Source: an uncultured Gimesia sp.
GTDB taxonomy: Bacteria; Planctomycetota; Planctomycetia; Planctomycetales; Planctomycetaceae
NCBI RefSeq assembly: GCF_937910335.1
Contig: NZ_CALEMX010000482.1
Span: 1-35,613, forward strand
DNA length: 35,613 nt
Reading direction: 5' to 3'
Part shown: one piece after another, positions 8,105-28,751 of the stretch
Layout: each line of letters begins with the position of its first letter
How positions within the stretch are numbered: the stretch's first letter is position 1
The notes under the pieces: generated by a model
The model's database searches: none
What the model saw: the letters and a program-made list of their open reading frames with translations, nothing else
What the model was told of the DNA's origin: nothing
Made by a program: the position numbers and the translations under genes

Positions 8105-8647
8105 TTATTGCATCTTTTCCAGCTCGGATCTGACATACCCGATTTTGTCACTGATGGCAAAATTTGTATTCCAGGGCTGGGGAAACAGAATCGCCTGCCC
8201 CCCATGTTCCCGAAACAAATCTACATTCTTATGCTGATCGTCAATCAACACCACATCCGGTTTTGCTAATAGATACTTTTGAGTACCGATCATGAAGTCC
8301 ATGAAATGTGGTTCTTGAAAATGCTGTCGCAGCCATTCCACTTTGGCCGAGGCACAGGCAGCACTGCGGCTGGGAGAAGTGCTAATCGTAAAGGGAGCCG
8401 TCTGTTTCAGCAGTATGAGTAGCTCATTCAGCCACGGATAAGGGGGAAACTCTTTCCAGAACCGGCCTCCCAAAGCGTCAACGGGTTTCCAGAATTCGTC
8501 TTTCGTCATGCCCGTCACACCCGCGTAATCTGCCTCTCCCTCAGGCCAGTTCTCGGTTAAATGCCCCTGACCATGCAACTCCAGGATCGATCCCATAAAA
8601 TCAGATATGACGCCATCCATGTCCAGTAATATATGTCGCACAGCCAT
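8105..8647 (-). CDS. 5'(3')-deoxyribonucleotidase-like HAD superfamily protein (NT5C type)
   Basis: HAD motif I LLDMDGVISDF at the N-terminus and motif IV-like VVLIDDQHKNV; 180 aa. Confidence 0.8.
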   Translation of the reverse strand: MAVRHILLDMDGVISDFMGSILELHGQGHLTENWPEGEADYAGVTGMTKDEFWKPVDALGGRFWKEFPPYPWLNELLILLKQTAPFTISTSPSRSAACASAKVEWLRQHFQEPHFMDFMIGTQKYLLAKPDVVLIDDQHKNVDLFREHGGQAILFPQPWNTNFAISDKIGYVRSELEKMQ

Positions 8648-8736: not shown

Positions 8737-9603
8737 GTGGCGATGTCTGATTTTGACTATGGAACAACGCAAATGACTAACTGGATAGAACTGGGAGAGG
8801 CTTCAGAAATTTCTCCCGGCACTCGTAAATCATATTCAATCAGGGGTACCGAGATTGCGGTGTTCCATGTAGACAACGATCAGCAGCTCGGAAAATATTA
8901 TGCAGTCCATGATTCTTGTCCGCATCAGGGCGCTTCACTGATCGAAGGGGAGGGCTGTGGCACCGAAGTCAGCTGCCCTTTGCATGACTGGAGTTTTGAT
9001 GTGGCTACGGGAGAATGCTTTGACTTTCCCGAATTTTCTTTGACTCGCTATGAACTCAAAGTAGAATCCGGCGTGCTACTGCTGGACGCTTCCACAATTG
9101 AGGAGCCAGACATCCCTCAAAATCCTTTTCTGGTTCGCTATGGCGCCATGGGATGGGTCGATCAATTCTCAGCAGAAGAGAACGCCGTTTATGCACACCG
9201 CGAACGAGTGATCTTAAAAACCAGTCGCGGAGAAGAGGTCGGAGAAATTCTTTCCTCAGTCAGCATACACGAAAATCCTGTTCCCTCAGCAGGCACAATT
9301 CTGCGAGAATTCACTCCAACAGACCAACAGACACTCTCCCGTCAGGAAGATGTGACCGCACCCGTATTCCAGGATTGCCAGAAACTCATTCAGGAACGGG
9401 GCATGCCTTCAGAGATAATTGACTGTGAGCAATTGTTTGATCAGCAAACGGTTGTACTGTATTATCTGGGCAGCCGGATGCCCGCTTTGGAAATTCTCGC
9501 TCAGGAGCTCAATGCCAATTATCCCTGGCGAATTATATTTCACCCCGTCGATGAAACACCCGCTGAGTCAGGTTGTTCGAGTGGCGGATGTGGCTGCGGT
9601 TAA
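8737..9603 (+). CDS. Rieske [2Fe-2S] domain fused to a PSP1/YaaT(RicT)-like domain, Cys-Gly-rich C-terminus
   Basis: Rieske ligands CPHQG...CPLHDW (CxH-x16-CxxH). From FLVRYGAMGWVDQFS onward it resembles PSP1: VILKTSRGEEVGEIL, TILREFTPTDQQTL, CQKLIQERGMPSEIIDCEQLFDQQTVVLYYLGSRMPALEILAQELNANYPWRIIFHPV; ends SGCSSGGCGCG. The GTG start at 8737 may be replaced by ATG 8743 or 8773. Confidence 0.82.
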   Translation: MAMSDFDYGTTQMTNWIELGEASEISPGTRKSYSIRGTEIAVFHVDNDQQLGKYYAVHDSCPHQGASLIEGEGCGTEVSCPLHDWSFDVATGECFDFPEFSLTRYELKVESGVLLLDASTIEEPDIPQNPFLVRYGAMGWVDQFSAEENAVYAHRERVILKTSRGEEVGEILSSVSIHENPVPSAGTILREFTPTDQQTLSRQEDVTAPVFQDCQKLIQERGMPSEIIDCEQLFDQQTVVLYYLGSRMPALEILAQELNANYPWRIIFHPVDETPAESGCSSGGCGCG

Positions 9604-9707
9604 AAATGAAATGACGTTCCTGAAATGTAACCCTGCTACAACGATGCCAGGCAGGAGCGAGAGACTTGCCACAACAACATTAACTTCCCCGATCAATGGA
9701 ATTCATC

Positions 9708-11060
9708 ATGAGCAATTCAATCAACCGGCGTTCGTTTCTGAGTACCTCACTGGGTGCAGCAGCTACCACCGGATTAGGAGCAGCGGCGGCATCACAATTG
9801 ACAGCCGCTGAAGACAAACAACAAGCGTCTGCCACCCCAAAAAAACAAAAGCCTATTCAGAATGATACGATCTTACATGCGAGAAAAGTGGCACTTGATA
9901 TTTTAAAGCCTACGCCAAAACAACTGGAGCGTGGACTCCAGCTGCATGCAGATTCACTCGTGTTTGACTCTTATGGCTTTGCACCGCGGGCCGCCGTTGA
10001 CGGTGATCGGCTGGCTGCAGCAATCAAAGAAAATGCTTCGCCAGCAGAACTCAAGGACATGCGAGAAGACATGTCAATGACACGCTGTGTTACCAACCCG
10101 GCAGAGCAACGCGAATTCAAAGAAGCCTTCGATGCTTCCGGCGTCACTTGTATCTTTCAAAATGCCGGCGAAGAAGGGCAGGACCCTCTAAGACTGATCA
10201 AGCGACTAGCCCGTTTCACATATACAACAGATATGCTGGCCGACTTTGTATCAAAGGCAGTAACTCCCGCTGACATTCAACAGGCCAAAAAAGAAGGTCG
10301 CCACTGTTTGTATCTCACAGGAAATGGCGTTCCTCTGACTCAACAATGGGTCACCACGACCGACGAAATGAAATACATGCAGATTTTTTACCAACTGGGC
10401 ATTCGCATGATGCATATGACTTACAATCGTCGTAATATGCTTGGCGATGGCTGTGCCGAACCGGCTAACGCAGGCTTAAGTGACTTTGGCCGAACCGTGG
10501 TCGCAGAAATGAATCGGCTGGGCATTATCCCGGATGTCGCGCATTCCGGATGGCAGACCAGTCTGGAAACCGCGCAAGTTTCAGACCGTCCCGTTGTCGC
10601 CAGCCATACCACATGTGCCAGTCTGCATCACCATATTCGCAGCAAACCGGATAACGTCATTAAAGCCATTGCCGATACCGGAGGCCTGATCGGCATCTGC
10701 TGTATTCCCCGTTACCTGGGAGGTAATGGTGATATCAGCGCGCTATTAGACCACGTCGATTATGTCGTGAAAAAATTTGGCATTGATCATATTGCCATCG
10801 GCACCGATGTGTCTTATTCATCACGTAATGGCGCATTAGAAAGTAAGAAAGTTCCCCGCGCTCCGCGTTCTCGAACAGCCTGGCGAAGCTTGTGGCCCGC
10901 TGATCCGTTCGTTGAAACACCGAATATGCGAATCAGTGTTTCCTGGACAAATTGGCCTATATTTACCGTCGGTTTGGTTCAACGTGGATACTCTGATTCC
11001 GACATTCAAAAAATTATTGGCGGGAATATTTTGCGGGTTTGTGAGCAGTCATTTTCCTGA
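9708..11060 (+). CDS. Membrane dipeptidase (peptidase M19 family), TAT-targeted
   Basis: Twin-arginine leader MSNSINRRSFLSTSLGAAATTGLGAAAAS; M19-like segments (GIRMMHMTYNRRNMLGDGCAEPANAGLSDFGRTVVAEMNRLGIIPDVAHSG, PVVASHTTCASLHHHIRS, IAIGTDVSY). ORF opens at 9696; ATG 9708 is preferred. Confidence 0.9.
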   Translation: MSNSINRRSFLSTSLGAAATTGLGAAAASQLTAAEDKQQASATPKKQKPIQNDTILHARKVALDILKPTPKQLERGLQLHADSLVFDSYGFAPRAAVDGDRLAAAIKENASPAELKDMREDMSMTRCVTNPAEQREFKEAFDASGVTCIFQNAGEEGQDPLRLIKRLARFTYTTDMLADFVSKAVTPADIQQAKKEGRHCLYLTGNGVPLTQQWVTTTDEMKYMQIFYQLGIRMMHMTYNRRNMLGDGCAEPANAGLSDFGRTVVAEMNRLGIIPDVAHSGWQTSLETAQVSDRPVVASHTTCASLHHHIRSKPDNVIKAIADTGGLIGICCIPRYLGGNGDISALLDHVDYVVKKFGIDHIAIGTDVSYSSRNGALESKKVPRAPRSRTAWRSLWPADPFVETPNMRISVSWTNWPIFTVGLVQRGYSDSDIQKIIGGNILRVCEQSFS

Positions 11061-15473: not shown

Positions 15474-16208
15474 TTATTCTACTTTTTTACCGAACAGGAG
15501 AATCTCATCAAAATTGCCGGTATCATCGAACGAACCAATCCCCACACGTCCCGATAAAAATGTTTTATCGCTTGCCGTCATAACCGGCTCCTGCATATCA
15601 TCAAAATATATTTTGATGGAACCAGATTTGGTATCGCGAACAACACGCGCGTGATGCCATTCATCATCCCAGTTTGTACCGGCGGTGGTCTTTGTCGAAA
15701 TCTTGGTGCGGGGTTTACCATTGACGATGAAAATCTGGTTGGCGTGATCATCCATCTTTTTGCCAAAATGTACATAATAAAAATGGGCGTCATCCTGGTA
15801 GCCAAAAAACAGACATAAAGATCGATGGCCATAATCGGGAATCGTAGACTGTAATTTCACATCCAACAGGAAATCGCTAACCGAAATATTTTTCAGTAAC
15901 GCACGGTTATAAGGCGAACGGACGGGTGGTTCGAAGTTACTTTTTTTCTTGATGAGACTGAAAGCATGGTTGTCTCCCTGATGGATGACTTTCCAGGCTT
16001 TGTCGTCCGTAGGCTCCCAATGTTTTGAATTTCCCGATTCAAAATTTTCGTGAAACAGCAAAGGTAGTCCCTGCATTTTCTGCGGAACCTCTCCTTTTTT
16101 GAGTGTTTTCAGAGGCGCCGAGTCTTTAGCCTCAAGCGAACCAGTTTCTGCGAATGAAAGCAGCATAAGTCCTGTCAACAGACAGGCTGATACTAGGAAC
16201 CGCAACAT
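15474..16208 (-). CDS. Secreted LamG/concanavalin-like fold protein (DUF1080-like)
   Basis: 244 aa with signal peptide; ENFESGNSKHWEPTDDKAWKV..., HARVVRDTKSGSIKIYFDDMQEPVMTASDKTFLSGRVGIGSFDDTGNFDEILLFG. Confidence 0.72.
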   Translation of the reverse strand: MLRFLVSACLLTGLMLLSFAETGSLEAKDSAPLKTLKKGEVPQKMQGLPLLFHENFESGNSKHWEPTDDKAWKVIHQGDNHAFSLIKKKSNFEPPVRSPYNRALLKNISVSDFLLDVKLQSTIPDYGHRSLCLFFGYQDDAHFYYVHFGKKMDDHANQIFIVNGKPRTKISTKTTAGTNWDDEWHHARVVRDTKSGSIKIYFDDMQEPVMTASDKTFLSGRVGIGSFDDTGNFDEILLFGKKVE

Positions 16209-16344
16209 GGAATTGCTCCTGTTTCAATGAAAGAAAGCAACCGGAAAATTTTGCATATCGTATTAGAATGCGCAAAACCATACGGATGATGGGGGAGTTC
16301 TGATCTTGTGTCAGAATCTATGAGACAGGATTTCGCCCTGATTT

Positions 16345-17658
16345 TCAAGCATCAGGACGTTTTCGCGGTTTGCCAAGAGGTCCTTCACCCGGTTTCCGCT
16401 CGCGAGAAGGACGGTCTCCACGATCTTGGGGACCGTTCTTGCGACGATCTCTCATATTCTTCAAGCGGTCTTTGTTTCCACGCTTGAACGGATTATCAAA
16501 GCCGGGCCCTTTCATATCGATCCCACGAAATAATTGGGGAACCAAAGCATTGAATTCCGCCGATTTTATCTTGATACTTTTTCCGACCTCTACGGGTAAA
16601 TTTTTCTGCAAGTAGAGATACTTCAATTTATCCTGCATTTCATCTGGAGGATACTTCATCAGGTAATCTTTCATTTTGGTATCTAAACCCGTCTCAAAAA
16701 ATTTCTGTAGCGCATCATCCGGAGGACTCTGCTGATCCAGTTCTTGTTTGACAGATTTGACTAACTGACCCAGCAACCCTTTCGCTAAAAAGATTGATAA
16801 CATCGCCCTTTGTCCATTTTCTTCGCGGGGAATCGGTCTTGGATTGCGTTGCTCTCTAGAATTTAGGAACGAAAATTTATTTTCACTCCACAGTTGGAAA
16901 ATTCCATTCATGACATCTGTGGAAGGCCAGATTGATCCCTTTTGGTTCACTTTTTCTTTAGGATTATTCAGTGCTGTCGCTGTTTTTAAAACAGCCAGAG
17001 ATCTCTCATATTCAGATAACGAATCTTTCGGCCGGGGATATTCCACCGAACTTGGCAGGCTTCGCTCAATAGTATCGATCACTTCTATATAGAGATCAGG
17101 TGGTAGCATTGAATTCCTCAAGAGAAACATCATGCGCGGATCTCGAAAATTGATCTCCAGCATTCTTAAAATCTCATAATCAGATCGACTGCCGCGGCGA
17201 TTTGCTTGATTGCCATGAGAACGGAATTCGCGAATCAGCTCCATCCGCTCCGATGGGGTTTTGGCGTTGCGCAAATCTTCCTGCTCCCAGGGAGACAACG
17301 TTTTCACCCAGTTACAATAAGAACGCATGACCTGATTCAATTCCGGCTGTTTGCGCGTCGCTGCATGAATTTCCCGAAATCGCTGTTTGTCCTGAGCAGA
17401 CAGCTTTTGAAACTTTTCGTAATTGCGTTTTAACTGTGCACGTTCTGAGTGTGTCATGGATTCTATTTTTTTGCGGTTCGCGCCTGCGCGATCTTCATCC
17501 TGACCCGTTGCTCCCAACAAGATCATCACAAAGAGTACCGTTCCAACACCGAGACCCACGGCGCGCAACAATACCGGCCATAATGCCGATTCCGGGCTTA
17601 CAGGCTGAGAAGCTCTGTCAGATTGCCTCTTATCTACTTTTCTGCTGCGCGGTTTCAT
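16345..17658 (-). CDS. Membrane-anchored protein with a charged, helical DUF3106-like region; third gene of a sigma/anti-sigma operon
   Basis: Met at 17658 (MKPRSRKVDKRQSD...) precedes a single TM segment (VLLRAVGLGVGTVLFVMILLGATG) and helix-rich repeats (MTHSERAQLKRNYEKFQKLSAQDKQRFREIH). The ORF-track start at 17826 lies deep in the anti-sigma gene and is unlikely. Confidence 0.7.
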   Translation of the reverse strand: MKPRSRKVDKRQSDRASQPVSPESALWPVLLRAVGLGVGTVLFVMILLGATGQDEDRAGANRKKIESMTHSERAQLKRNYEKFQKLSAQDKQRFREIHAATRKQPELNQVMRSYCNWVKTLSPWEQEDLRNAKTPSERMELIREFRSHGNQANRRGSRSDYEILRMLEINFRDPRMMFLLRNSMLPPDLYIEVIDTIERSLPSSVEYPRPKDSLSEYERSLAVLKTATALNNPKEKVNQKGSIWPSTDVMNGIFQLWSENKFSFLNSREQRNPRPIPREENGQRAMLSIFLAKGLLGQLVKSVKQELDQQSPPDDALQKFFETGLDTKMKDYLMKYPPDEMQDKLKYLYLQKNLPVEVGKSIKIKSAEFNALVPQLFRGIDMKGPGFDNPFKRGNKDRLKNMRDRRKNGPQDRGDRPSRERKPGEGPLGKPRKRPDA

Positions 17659-18160
17659 TGAATGTTCCTGAGTGCGACAACTCTTCCAAAAATTCCAGGC
17701 TTTGTACTTCCGAATAAGTATCCAGGTTTTCGATAAACGATAACTCTGAAAGCAAGGGTTCCGACTCTTCTGGAACCAATTGATTGGTAAACATATAGCC
17801 GAAGAAAATAGAGCATGCCAAACCAATGATCCAGCCTCCAGCGACAGTCGCTTTACGAAGTTGCTCTTGCATTTTTTTATTCATCGAAAAACCAGACCGA
17901 TTCTGGTCTTCAATAGCCTGCGCTTCCAACTGAATGGTTTTGATTGTTGAGAGCGTATTATTCGTAAACTCTTCCGAGGCTTTGGCAATAGGGAGTCTGT
18001 CCAACAATTGCCAGGTCCGTTCCAGAGAATCCACGTGCACGCGTACTTCTTCATCGCGCGAAAGTGACTGCTCCACTTCAATCGCTTCCTGCTCGCTGAC
18101 CTCGCCATCGAGATAAGCAACCAGCTTTTCGAGTTCCTGTTCTTTCTGCTCTTTTTTCAT
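17630..18160 (-). CDS. Putative transmembrane anti-sigma factor
   Basis: 176 aa: N-terminal acidic helical region (LEKLVAYLDGEVSEQEAIEVEQSLSRDEEVRVHVDSLERTWQLLDRLP), one TM (VAGGWIIGLACSIFFGYMF); directly downstream of the sigma gene. Confidence 0.78.
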   Translation of the reverse strand: MKKEQKEQELEKLVAYLDGEVSEQEAIEVEQSLSRDEEVRVHVDSLERTWQLLDRLPIAKASEEFTNNTLSTIKTIQLEAQAIEDQNRSGFSMNKKMQEQLRKATVAGGWIIGLACSIFFGYMFTNQLVPEESEPLLSELSFIENLDTYSEVQSLEFLEELSHSGTFNETAQQKSR

Positions 18161-19137: not shown

Positions 19138-20316
19138 ATGACGCTGAATTCATTGCCTTTGAGTTATTGCACTAATGTGCATCCGGGTTTGACCGTCGCA
19201 GAGATCTTACAAAAACTCGACGAGTTTACGATTCCGATTCAACAACAACTAGGTACCCCACTTGCCGCCGGTCTCTGGTTGGCGGAGCCTGTCATAAAAG
19301 AAATTCTTGCCACACCGGATGGACACCTCCGCTTTGCTGAAGAAATTCACAAAAGAAATTTGACGTGTTACACTTTAAATGCATTTCCCTTTGGAAATTT
19401 TCACAGCGATCGGGTGAAAGAAAATGTATATTTGCCCGACTGGTCGGATCCAGAAAGACTGGAATACACAAAAGGTTGTGCACGGGTTCTTGCCGCATTA
19501 TTGCCTGAAGACACGGAAGGCAGCATTTCCACGGTACCGCTGGGATTCAAAAAATTTGAACATGCAGCTGATTTCAGCGAAACATGCGTTGAACAATTAA
19601 TCGAACTGGCAACGTTTCTCAAAGAGTTGAAAGAGGAAACCGGCAGAACCATTCGCCTGGCAATTGAGCCAGAGCCATTTTGTGTGATTGAATTCACACA
19701 TGAACTGATTGTGTTTTTCGAACGATTGTATGAAAGGGCTGCAAAAAAACAATTACTGGGAACCGTTAGAGAATATTTAGGAGCCTGCTATGATATCTGC
19801 CATCAAGCTGTCGAATTTGAAGATATTCCCGGCTCGATCCGACAAATCACACACGCGGAAATCCGAATCAATAAAATTCACATCTCGAACGCCATCGAAC
19901 TCACCAACCCGTGGGAAAATGAAGCCGGGCGAACACAGCTCGCACAATACGCTGAACCCCGTTATTTGCATCAAACAATTGGCAGTTTAAGAAATGGAGA
20001 CCTTTATCGGATTGTGGATTTAACCCGCAAATTTTTATTGGCTCCCGATCCCCGTATCAAAGAAACGAAAAAACTGAGGGTTCATTTTCATGTGCCCATA
20101 GATGCCGTCACCCTGGGTGCACTGGGAACGACGCATCAAGAATTGAGACAGGCTCTGGCGACTGTCAAAGAACTCGATTATGCTCCGCATCTGGAAGTGG
20201 AAACCTACACCTGGGAAGTCTTGCCCGACGATCAGAAGCCAACACTGGTCGAAGGATTAACGCGCGAACTGCAGGCGGCCCAAATGCTCTTGAATACGCT
20301 CTCAGAGAATGAGTAA
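19138..20316 (+). CDS. eboE: EboE-like metabolite traffic protein (xylose-isomerase-like TIM barrel)
   Basis: N-terminal SYCTNVHPG; LAIEPEPFCVIEFTHE; GACYDICHQAVEFED; RINKIHISNAIEL, consistent with the EboE family. Confidence 0.8.
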   Translation: MTLNSLPLSYCTNVHPGLTVAEILQKLDEFTIPIQQQLGTPLAAGLWLAEPVIKEILATPDGHLRFAEEIHKRNLTCYTLNAFPFGNFHSDRVKENVYLPDWSDPERLEYTKGCARVLAALLPEDTEGSISTVPLGFKKFEHAADFSETCVEQLIELATFLKELKEETGRTIRLAIEPEPFCVIEFTHELIVFFERLYERAAKKQLLGTVREYLGACYDICHQAVEFEDIPGSIRQITHAEIRINKIHISNAIELTNPWENEAGRTQLAQYAEPRYLHQTIGSLRNGDLYRIVDLTRKFLLAPDPRIKETKKLRVHFHVPIDAVTLGALGTTHQELRQALATVKELDYAPHLEVETYTWEVLPDDQKPTLVEGLTRELQAAQMLLNTLSENE

Positions 20317-24097: not shown

Positions 24098-25462
24098 TCA
24101 TTTCGGTTGGGGATCGGCCTCTACAAAATCTTGAGGCAACGGCATCTCTTTTGTAATTACGTCCCAGGATGCACCCATTTCCCGGAATGGATTGAAATTC
24201 TTTGGCTTGTAGGCAATCTCCAGTTGGGGCGTTTTCATCAGAGCCTGTCCCTTTTCAAAATAGGAATGCATGGCGACATCCAGCACGCCCGTCATCAACA
24301 GCGTTCTTTCGCAAGGATAAGGTTCTTCCTTATGCACAAATAAATGTTGAATGGCATGTGAAAAGGCACGGAATAAATTACGGTTCCCCCAGGGACCCGG
24401 GAAAAATGAGGTTGCTTTCGGCGTTGCTTCTCCTTTGACCTGACAGGCAAAATTCCAGCGAACGCCATTCGTACCGATTTTGAGCATCGTCGCGCGAAAA
24501 CCATCTTTGTATTCGAGCAGAATTCCATGCGGCTCGCTGGTACCTTCTTTGTTGATTGGATCAAACAGACCGCGTTTACTTTTTCCCAGCTCGGCTTGCA
24601 TCGCCGCTTCTGCCAGCTTCATCGACCAGCGTCCTTCGCGGCCTGCTTTTATCAGATCATCGCCTTTCAAGAACTGCACAGAAGAAACTCCCGTTTCCCC
24701 TCCTTTGCGAAATTCGACCATCGACTGCAAGACTTCCAAACCATGGATATCGTATTTCTCGATAGGTCCACCGTGAATGGAAACAGCGTCTTCCAATTCC
24801 GTGCCTTCTGGAATTTCCAAAGGAATCGTCCGCTGAGCCAGGGGAACCGAACTACCTACCATCATGGGGAACTCATATTTGCGCGAAGTGTCATACATTT
24901 CGCGGGCCCAATCCCAGCGATAAGAAAAATGCTTGTCGCTGAAAACGGGAACAAACCGTTTCGACTGCTTCATGACATCAACGATTTCATCAAAAAACCG
25001 TTTGCGAGGATACATGGTCTGTCCATATTTGGTATCAGGATAATCGCCGTGCTCACCGATTGAGAGAACAGCATCGACTGCCAGTTCGTCGCCTCCCCGA
25101 CGCAAAGCTTCGCCAATAGTTTTATAAAACGGGAGCTCAAATTTTTTAGCGACACCCCGCGAAAGATCCCCCTCTTTAAACTGGTCTCCATACAGCGAAA
25201 CGACATCACACTGTGGTTGGAGCAATTTACCATTGAAGAGATAAGGACCTAAAAAGGGATGAAAAATATGATACGCATGCGAGCAATAAAAGAACTGTGT
25301 GAAGATCCCCGCCACCTGAGGCCGCTTGCTGTCAGCTGCTTCCAACTCCTGCTGCGACCAGTCCATACCAGCAGTCCCTGCCATCGCAGCCGCTCCCATC
25401 TTTAACAAATCACGGCGAGACATCGAATCAGAAAATCGTGGACGGTGAAAAGATTCAGACAT
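24098..25462 (-). CDS. TAT-targeted protein of unknown function (planctomycete-type)
   Basis: MSESFHRPRFSDSMSRRDLLKMGAAAMAGTAGM leader; about 455 aa. The ORF opens at 25564; Met at 25462 is the more plausible start. Confidence 0.78.
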   Translation of the reverse strand: MSESFHRPRFSDSMSRRDLLKMGAAAMAGTAGMDWSQQELEAADSKRPQVAGIFTQFFYCSHAYHIFHPFLGPYLFNGKLLQPQCDVVSLYGDQFKEGDLSRGVAKKFELPFYKTIGEALRRGGDELAVDAVLSIGEHGDYPDTKYGQTMYPRKRFFDEIVDVMKQSKRFVPVFSDKHFSYRWDWAREMYDTSRKYEFPMMVGSSVPLAQRTIPLEIPEGTELEDAVSIHGGPIEKYDIHGLEVLQSMVEFRKGGETGVSSVQFLKGDDLIKAGREGRWSMKLAEAAMQAELGKSKRGLFDPINKEGTSEPHGILLEYKDGFRATMLKIGTNGVRWNFACQVKGEATPKATSFFPGPWGNRNLFRAFSHAIQHLFVHKEEPYPCERTLLMTGVLDVAMHSYFEKGQALMKTPQLEIAYKPKNFNPFREMGASWDVITKEMPLPQDFVEADPQPK

Positions 25463-25553
25463 GGGGAAGACTCCAGTGGTGGGACAATGCGGTAGGTTTG
25501 TGGAGACTATCGTATCAAATCTTCGATCTGTGTCCACCAGTTTTTGGACTTGA
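25384..25553. repeat. Direct repeat copy A (5' end and upstream region of the TAT protein gene)
   Basis: Shares ctttaacaaatcac, gacatcgaa, tccagtggtgggacaa, gtttttgg and their spacing with 27054-27222; roughly three-quarters identity by eye. Confidence 0.8.
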
Positions 25554-25621
25554 TGCCAAGACATTTCGTTAGCCTTCCCGTCAGAGATTTTTTGTATTTC
25601 TCCGAACCAAAATCATGGGTC

Positions 25622-27314: not shown

Positions 27315-28751
27315 TTAAGATTCGTACTTCCTCCATGGAACATCTTTGATTGCCGAATGACTGAATTCTACATCAAGACTGCGGCATGTTATCTTTCCTT
27401 GATAACCAACAATTGCAAGGATGGCTTGAGCTAGAAGACCATTAATCTGATACCATAAACCTACTCTCTCATGTGATCCATTCCTACGAGAGAACAGTTT
27501 CATCACTTTACTTGGAGTTCCATGCACCAGCGAATTTCGAATATGGACCAGCACTTCGGGTAAATCGATTTCTTTCAAATTGTTATCATTTGCGTAGGAA
27601 AGAATTTCCTCACATTTCGCTGGTATCTCTGATGGGATCGAATACACCTTAAGCAACTGTCGAATTTTTTCGGCAGCATGCAGTTTCTTAAACTTACTTT
27701 TTGAATATCGTTGAGTCCTGTCCACCAAATCCAGCCATGCAAATGATTCAAGAGCCGCCTGCTGTAAGATAATTGATCCTTCAATAAAACCAGCGCTCAT
27801 CTCAGATTCAATGTACCAACCGATTCCAGTCGTTATTACTTTATATTTCTCTGGCTCGTTGTACGCATGGAATAAACAGCTAAATAGCTCCTCGAAAGTT
27901 CCCATTACCATTCTGTCATACCAGGATAATCCTGGTGGATTCATACTGACCATCGTTACTCGTGGAAATGCTCGATTTAATTTACCAGTATCCGAATAAC
28001 CCCATGGGCCAACTAATCCCACCCATCGACCACACATAAACGAAAGAGTTTTCTGTAAAACTGATCCAATTACATCAATCCCTGAATTTGTACTACTCTT
28101 CTTAAATCTAACTTCGATGATATGTGTAAAGACAAACGGGAATTGAATATTTTTCTTCTTCTCTTTGATCTGATCGATAACAATTTCAAAGCCATCGACT
28201 TTTGTTTCAGTTCTCCCTTTGAAGACAGAGTCACTTCCTTCGATTATTTTCCCAAATAAGTCTGGACCATTGATGGTCAAATATTTTATTGAATCGAAGT
28301 GAGGGTCGGGTTCAATATGCTCACCCAAGTGACCTGAAAAATAATTCAACTTGTTCGTATTTGTAACATTAACAGTCATTGGTCCAATTGGTTGATCACA
28401 AGACAATTGATGTATTCCAAACTGCTCGGTATTGAACTTGCTTTCTAATACCTCAACCGCCTCTGGTTGTTCGTCACTTTCGAACTCAAATAAGACGTTT
28501 GGTTTAGGAGCAATCTCAAAAAAAATATTTCCACTACCAGTTCTAGTCCTTCCATCTTTCGATAAAGTTGTTTTTCCAGACCAAAATTCTATCAGGCCAG
28601 TTTCTTTATCAAATTCACAAGGAAGTGTGAGCCTCTCTGGCAACTTTTTGTCTTTCTGGGCCGGTAAAAAATCATTCACAATTAAATACTCTTTTCTTGA
28701 AATAGTTCGAGTATACGTAGAAGAAAGCAAACATCCAAAGTGAGACTTCAA
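27315..28751 (-). CDS. Protein of unknown function with HEPN-like C-terminal motif (candidate ApeA-like)
   Basis: 478 aa ORF; LVHIRNSLVHGTPSK contains R-x4-H; helical surroundings (IILQQAALESFAWLDLV). Long ORF in visibly A+T-richer DNA. Confidence 0.65.
   Translation of the reverse strand: MKSHFGCLLSSTYTRTISRKEYLIVNDFLPAQKDKKLPERLTLPCEFDKETGLIEFWSGKTTLSKDGRTRTGSGNIFFEIAPKPNVLFEFESDEQPEAVEVLESKFNTEQFGIHQLSCDQPIGPMTVNVTNTNKLNYFSGHLGEHIEPDPHFDSIKYLTINGPDLFGKIIEGSDSVFKGRTETKVDGFEIVIDQIKEKKKNIQFPFVFTHIIEVRFKKSSTNSGIDVIGSVLQKTLSFMCGRWVGLVGPWGYSDTGKLNRAFPRVTMVSMNPPGLSWYDRMVMGTFEELFSCLFHAYNEPEKYKVITTGIGWYIESEMSAGFIEGSIILQQAALESFAWLDLVDRTQRYSKSKFKKLHAAEKIRQLLKVYSIPSEIPAKCEEILSYANDNNLKEIDLPEVLVHIRNSLVHGTPSKVMKLFSRRNGSHERVGLWYQINGLLAQAILAIVGYQGKITCRSLDVEFSHSAIKDVPWRKYES

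Follow-up and report, generated by a model that had tools for sequence, protein, structure and literature searches.

The window, the whole stretch of 35,613 nucleotides analysed here, encodes a protein in which an N-terminal Rieske domain is joined in one chain to a PSP1 core related to the N-terminal part of RicT (also known as YaaT), and which ends in a tail rich in cysteine and glycine (Table 1). Judged from its orthologues, the fusion gene is under purifying selection and is stable across genera. The best explanation, to which we assign a probability of about 0.5, is that the Rieske cluster serves as a redox input to a PSP1/RicT-type protein. A second fusion of the same two modules in the opposite order, found in a family that is only remotely related within the phylum, suggests such an input, and this recurrence is the strongest evidence for a functional link between the modules. 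No description of an architecture combining a Rieske domain with RicT/YaaT/PSP1 was found in the open-access literature, which proves no absence, and the reverse-order fusion is new here.

Domain structure of the window protein

The longest open reading frame of the gene (8737-9603, plus strand) begins with GTG and comprises 288 codons for amino acids. Because several orthologue frames open only at the sequence MTNWI, a start that is kept throughout the genus in the orthologue alignment, translation most likely begins at ATG 8773 rather than at GTG 8737, which gives a predicted protein of 276 aa. The initial annotation had recognised Rieske ligands in the N-terminal part, and these are borne out: the region matches PF00355 with an E-value of 2.4e-19 and 69.5 bits against a cut-off of 20.3 (residues 15-100), and all four ligands, two cysteines and two histidines, are there in the arrangement CXH-X16-CXXH. 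The motif with its X16 spacing occurs in all of the 43 distinct full-length fusions examined, a set that includes two reverse-order (RicT-Rieske) proteins. The PDB matches of the domain are Rieske ferredoxins, for example 2qpz (E = 1.2e-10), and it is probably of the soluble Rieske-ferredoxin type with predicted [2Fe-2S] binding.

Table 1 Features of the window and of the compared loci
Feature	Position	Strand	Basis or remark
NT5C-type 5'-nucleotidase, divergent neighbour	8105..8647	-	PF06941, 2.2e-12
Rieske-PSP1 fusion gene	8773..9603	+	ORF; 276 aa; start set by orthologue frames
Rieske [2Fe-2S] domain	8779..9036	+	PF00355; PDB matches to Rieske ferredoxins
First Rieske ligand pair, Cys-Pro-His (C49, H51 of the 276-aa protein)	8917..8925	+	Sequence; invariant in orthologue alignment
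Second Rieske ligand pair, Cys-Pro-Leu-His (C68, H71 of the 276-aa protein)	8974..8985	+	Sequence; invariant in orthologue alignment
RicT-like PSP1 half, equivalent to the N-terminal part of canonical RicT	9127..9552	+	hhalign against canonical RicT
PSP1 Pfam domain PF04468	9295..9540	+	40.4 bits; also whole-genome search
Cys-Gly tail SGCSSGGCGCG, replacing the CX4CCX30CX4CC region of RicT	9568..9600	+	Sequence
M19 dipeptidase with TAT-like signal, downstream neighbour	9696..11060	+	PF01244, 3.5e-63
BioB adjoining short tailed PSP1	L038, L039, L188-L207, L261-L263		Loci outside the window's family
RicT-Rieske gene, G188	L265, 4680-5905 region	-	
RicT-Rieske gene, G161	L267, 3923-5203	-	

The closeness of this domain to dioxygenase ferredoxins and to NirD would fit an ordinary Rieske ferredoxin that feeds an oxygenase or reductase and uses PSP1 for dimerisation or docking and nothing else. 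Such a role is nevertheless improbable, as the scores of the window protein fall short of every NCBIfam equivalog cut-off for ferredoxins or NirD (e.g. TIGR02378, 59.2 against 74.65; NF007422, 53 against 113), no oxygenase or nitrite reductase gene adjoins the fusion gene in the window or in the in-genus loci compared, and dN/dS in the closest pairs shows a constraint on the PSP1 half that equals or exceeds the one on the Rieske half. The genes that do adjoin the fusion gene give no specific hint of its function. The NT5C-type nucleotidase and the M19 dipeptidase are kept in the six in-genus loci compared and, like an epimerase, are syntenic in the genus, the synteny of the nucleotidase extending no further than the genus. 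No neighbour and no operon in the window or the in-genus loci provides a link between the N-terminal fusion and RNA metabolism. Elsewhere in the window four regions with long ORFs (15474-17826, 19138-20316, 24098-25564 and 27315-28751) have no Pfam match at an E-value of 1e-5.

The C-terminal region, which had been described as PSP1-like, matches PF04468 (E = 3.9e-10, 40.4 bits against a cut-off of 27, residues 187-268), and the PSP1 domain was recovered independently by a whole-genome search with 43.4 bits. Aligned in hhalign with the canonical RicT of planctomycetes, the fused C-terminal halves gave a probability of 99.8 and an E-value of 1.7e-30, with the match located at positions 26-191 of the 338 positions of the canonical RicT profile. 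The NCBIfam RicT model NF041131, on the other hand, reaches 37.9 bits against a cut-off of 70 and aligns only over model positions 2-118 of 213; since the half of RicT that ligates its clusters is absent as well, the window protein is ruled out as a RicT. The original one-polypeptide, RicT-like reading stands in so far as Rieske and PSP1 are parts of one conserved chain; an identity of the protein with RicT itself is not supported.

RicT contains Fe-S clusters and is linked to RNase Y (PMC6751060, PMC10470536), with which it forms a stable complex that requires the clusters (PMC10470536). In the B. subtilis protein the motif CX4CCX30CX4CC supplies C161, C166, C198 and C203 as ligands of cluster 1, while C167 takes part, together with RicF and RicA, in ligating cluster 2 (PMC6751060). 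Work on RNase Y has yet to settle whether the clusters of RicT act as structural parts, as sensors or as signals (PMC10470536, PMC13230545). The absence of this cysteine-rich end and its replacement by SGCSSGGCGCG had been seen at the outset, and the motif is in fact missing from all 41 fused proteins of the Rieske-then-PSP1 type. The window's genome also has a second, canonical PSP1 gene, as had been envisaged; it lies on contig C337, scores 246.7 bits with NF041131 and encodes a RicT with the exact CX4CCX30CX4CC spacing. The gene upstream of it is taken to be holB on the basis of its sequence. RNase Y scores above cut-off in this genome and in 13 of the 14 other genomes tested. Searches of PDB sequences with canonical RicT, with its profile and with the profile of the fused PSP1 half gave no match, and an AlphaFold prediction that drew on the window protein and five near-identical relatives only was poor (mean pLDDT 43.7, pTM 0.34).

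A tail with at least three cysteines is present in 39 of the 43 full-length relatives; of the four that lack one, two are RicT-Rieske proteins. Cys-Gly tails are found in nearly all of the short and fused PSP1 proteins. The number and spacing of the tail cysteines vary from protein to protein; CX4C occurs in 27 fused proteins, many of which are near-copies of each other, and the other fused proteins differ in spacing. One profile alignment invites the speculation that this CX4C is what remains of RicT's first pair of cluster ligands. The tail is a possible binding site for iron, an Fe-S cluster or some other metal. A Rieske-PSP1 protein from another family (G636, L256 4719-5804, minus strand) has a zinc-ribbon-like C-terminus, CPVC...CNC, in place of the Cys-Gly tail.

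Distribution and ancestry of the fusion

The genome searches covered the Planctomycetota, with genomes that include incomplete metagenome assemblies. Within the window's genus the full-length fusion is present in 16 of 17 genomes, and in the 17th it is interrupted by the end of a contig. A profile of the full-length protein detected it in 45 of the 170 genomes of the family, spread over 12 genera, and a search of 398 genomes of the class added G577 and G636, which belong to other families. Confinement of the fusion to a single genus is ruled out by this search with the full-length alignment, which detected it in 11 further genera of the family. The initial annotation had proposed to test its conservation in full-length homologues and had named two sequence-based outcomes that would speak against it, the lack of a PSP1 profile match and the lack of any other genome carrying the fusion; neither occurred.

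Whole-gene dN/dS within the genus is approximately 0.07-0.14, and in comparisons free of synonymous saturation each of the two halves has a low ratio (<1). The idea that two adjacent genes were joined in reading by chance or through faulty assembly is refuted by the recurrence of the fusion and can be dismissed, given that an identical continuous frame is seen in single-contig genomes and in 12 genera and that dN/dS is well below 1. In G577 an unfused tailed PSP1 gene is followed, about 400 bases further down the same strand, by a tail-less Rieske-PSP1 fusion (L191 4706-6612, minus strand).

The genomes of the family, and many of those of the class, contain two PSP1 genes, one for canonical RicT and one for a short protein of approximately 180-200 aa with a Cys-Gly tail. 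In the majority of genomes the short PSP1 occurs with no Rieske domain attached, and the Rieske part is therefore not essential to the PSP1 module. In the window's genus the fusion replaces the short gene, and each genome gives two PSP1 matches. The tree built from the PSP1 core sets canonical RicT apart with a support of 99/99 and places the fused proteins among the tailed ones. Judged by its core and tail, the window protein is a member of this family of tailed, truncated and usually unfused PSP1 paralogues. 

The AU test leaves a single clade of N-terminal fusions standing both for the PSP1 core (p = 0.297, or 0.651 without L242) and for the Rieske domain (p = 0.152), the latter value being only indicative as the set included two reverse-order proteins. 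The N-terminal fusion may have had a single origin followed by losses, which these tests neither show nor reject, or several origins. The short tailed PSP1 proteins of two genera, g258 and g215 (L258, L259 and L260), branch with the fused proteins in this tree, and a secondary loss of the Rieske domain is possible in their case. No stand-alone Rieske gene was found next to a PSP1 gene in the loci compared. Ten loci of the family (e.g. L042 4694-6450) have the short PSP1 gene followed on the same strand by a gene for a conserved protein of about 380 aa, often with a methyltransferase next; the conserved protein has no Pfam or NCBIfam match.

The reverse-order fusion and a proposed redox input

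In f78, a distant family of the phylum, all five genomes, which represent five genera, encode a complete RicT that continues in frame into a C-terminal Rieske domain. The CX4CC...CX4CC motif is present in those RicT-Rieske proteins that were read, and the protein of G161 exceeds the Pfam PSP1, Pfam Rieske and NCBIfam RicT cut-offs (209.5 bits for RicT). Across 392 genomes of the phylum the five f78 proteins are the only matches among those listed that extend through the Rieske part. Because the order of the modules is opposite and a different portion of RicT is involved, the f78 fusion constitutes an independent event. Two fusions of opposite order that combine a redox domain with a PSP1/RicT module amount to Rosetta-stone evidence that electron transfer matters to the PSP1/RicT family. 

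It is proposed that the Rieske cluster would take up or give one electron and that its redox state would set the activity or the partner binding of the PSP1 module, or would be read by that module. Redox state would thereby be coupled to the function of PSP1/RicT-type proteins, whatever that is. If the analogy with RicT of B. subtilis holds, the output would be the steering of RNase Y-dependent RNA processing, and from the same analogy we infer that the window protein may have an RNA target. The window protein itself is read, at roughly even odds, as a redox-wired adaptor of the RicT type that is not a RicT. A wider and more tentative suggestion, one that we would not expect to hold in full, is that RicT-type adaptors acquired Rieske clusters as their redox input on two or more occasions, with the modules in opposite orders, and that planctomycetes thereby use a one-electron switch to couple cellular redox state to RNase Y-dependent RNA processing.

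The genes found beside the relatives of the window protein also bear on its function. Outside the window's family biotin synthase (BioB) is encoded within approximately 1.2 kb of the short PSP1 gene, mostly in divergent orientation, in 21 of 27 loci, and in the two loci checked (G161 and G188) the RicT-Rieske gene is flanked by ispG on one side and by nuoB-nuoD on the other, all in the same orientation, the nuoB of G161 being an assignment made by eye. BioB next to the unfused paralogue and ispG and nuoB next to RicT-Rieske point equally to an Fe-S-enzyme context. The tailed PSP1 could thus be a service protein for Fe-S or other metal centres, one that carries or repairs the centres of enzymes such as BioB while the Rieske domain supplies the electrons. 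The products of ispG and nuoB-nuoD are Fe-S proteins or partners of such proteins, and the near-universal Cys-Gly tails of the short and fused proteins would suit this role; in the window's own family, however, BioB adjoins PSP1 at none of 64 loci, whether PSP1 is fused or not, the cysteines of the tails are variable in number and spacing, and divergent neighbours need not have a function in common. On balance a service role, though the chief rival of the redox-input reading, seems rather unlikely. Under the preferred reading of the Rieske cluster as a redox input, the spectroscopic distinctness of the Rieske domain makes a redox role of the PSP1/RicT family testable. The survey further reveals a widespread and as yet unnamed family of tailed PSP1 proteins whose genes often adjoin bioB.

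Relation to known systems

The soluble Rieske ferredoxins, such as naphthalene dioxygenase ferredoxin, BphF and NirD (PF00355), share the domain size, the CXH-X16-CXXH motif and sequence with the window protein, but they are stand-alone electron donors, whereas the Rieske domain of the window protein is fused to PSP1. RicT/YaaT (NF041131, with a PF04468 core) has an N-terminal part that is homologous to the PSP1 core of the window protein; the latter is devoid of the cluster-ligating C-terminal half and has an additional Rieske domain at its N-terminus. Eukaryotic PSP1-C proteins, among them yeast PSP1 and the kinetoplastid RBP33 and RBP45, have PF04468 in common with the window protein, and some of them bind or associate with mRNA; RNA binding by PSP1 is itself uncertain (PMC6907760). 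The short Cys-Gly-tailed PSP1 paralogue, unfused and widespread in the class, has the same core and tail as the window protein, differs in being without a Rieske domain, and outside the family mostly adjoins bioB. In the RicT-Rieske proteins of f78 a complete RicT comes first and the Rieske domain second, whereas in the window protein the Rieske domain comes first and is followed by a RicT-like module whose C-terminal half is missing.
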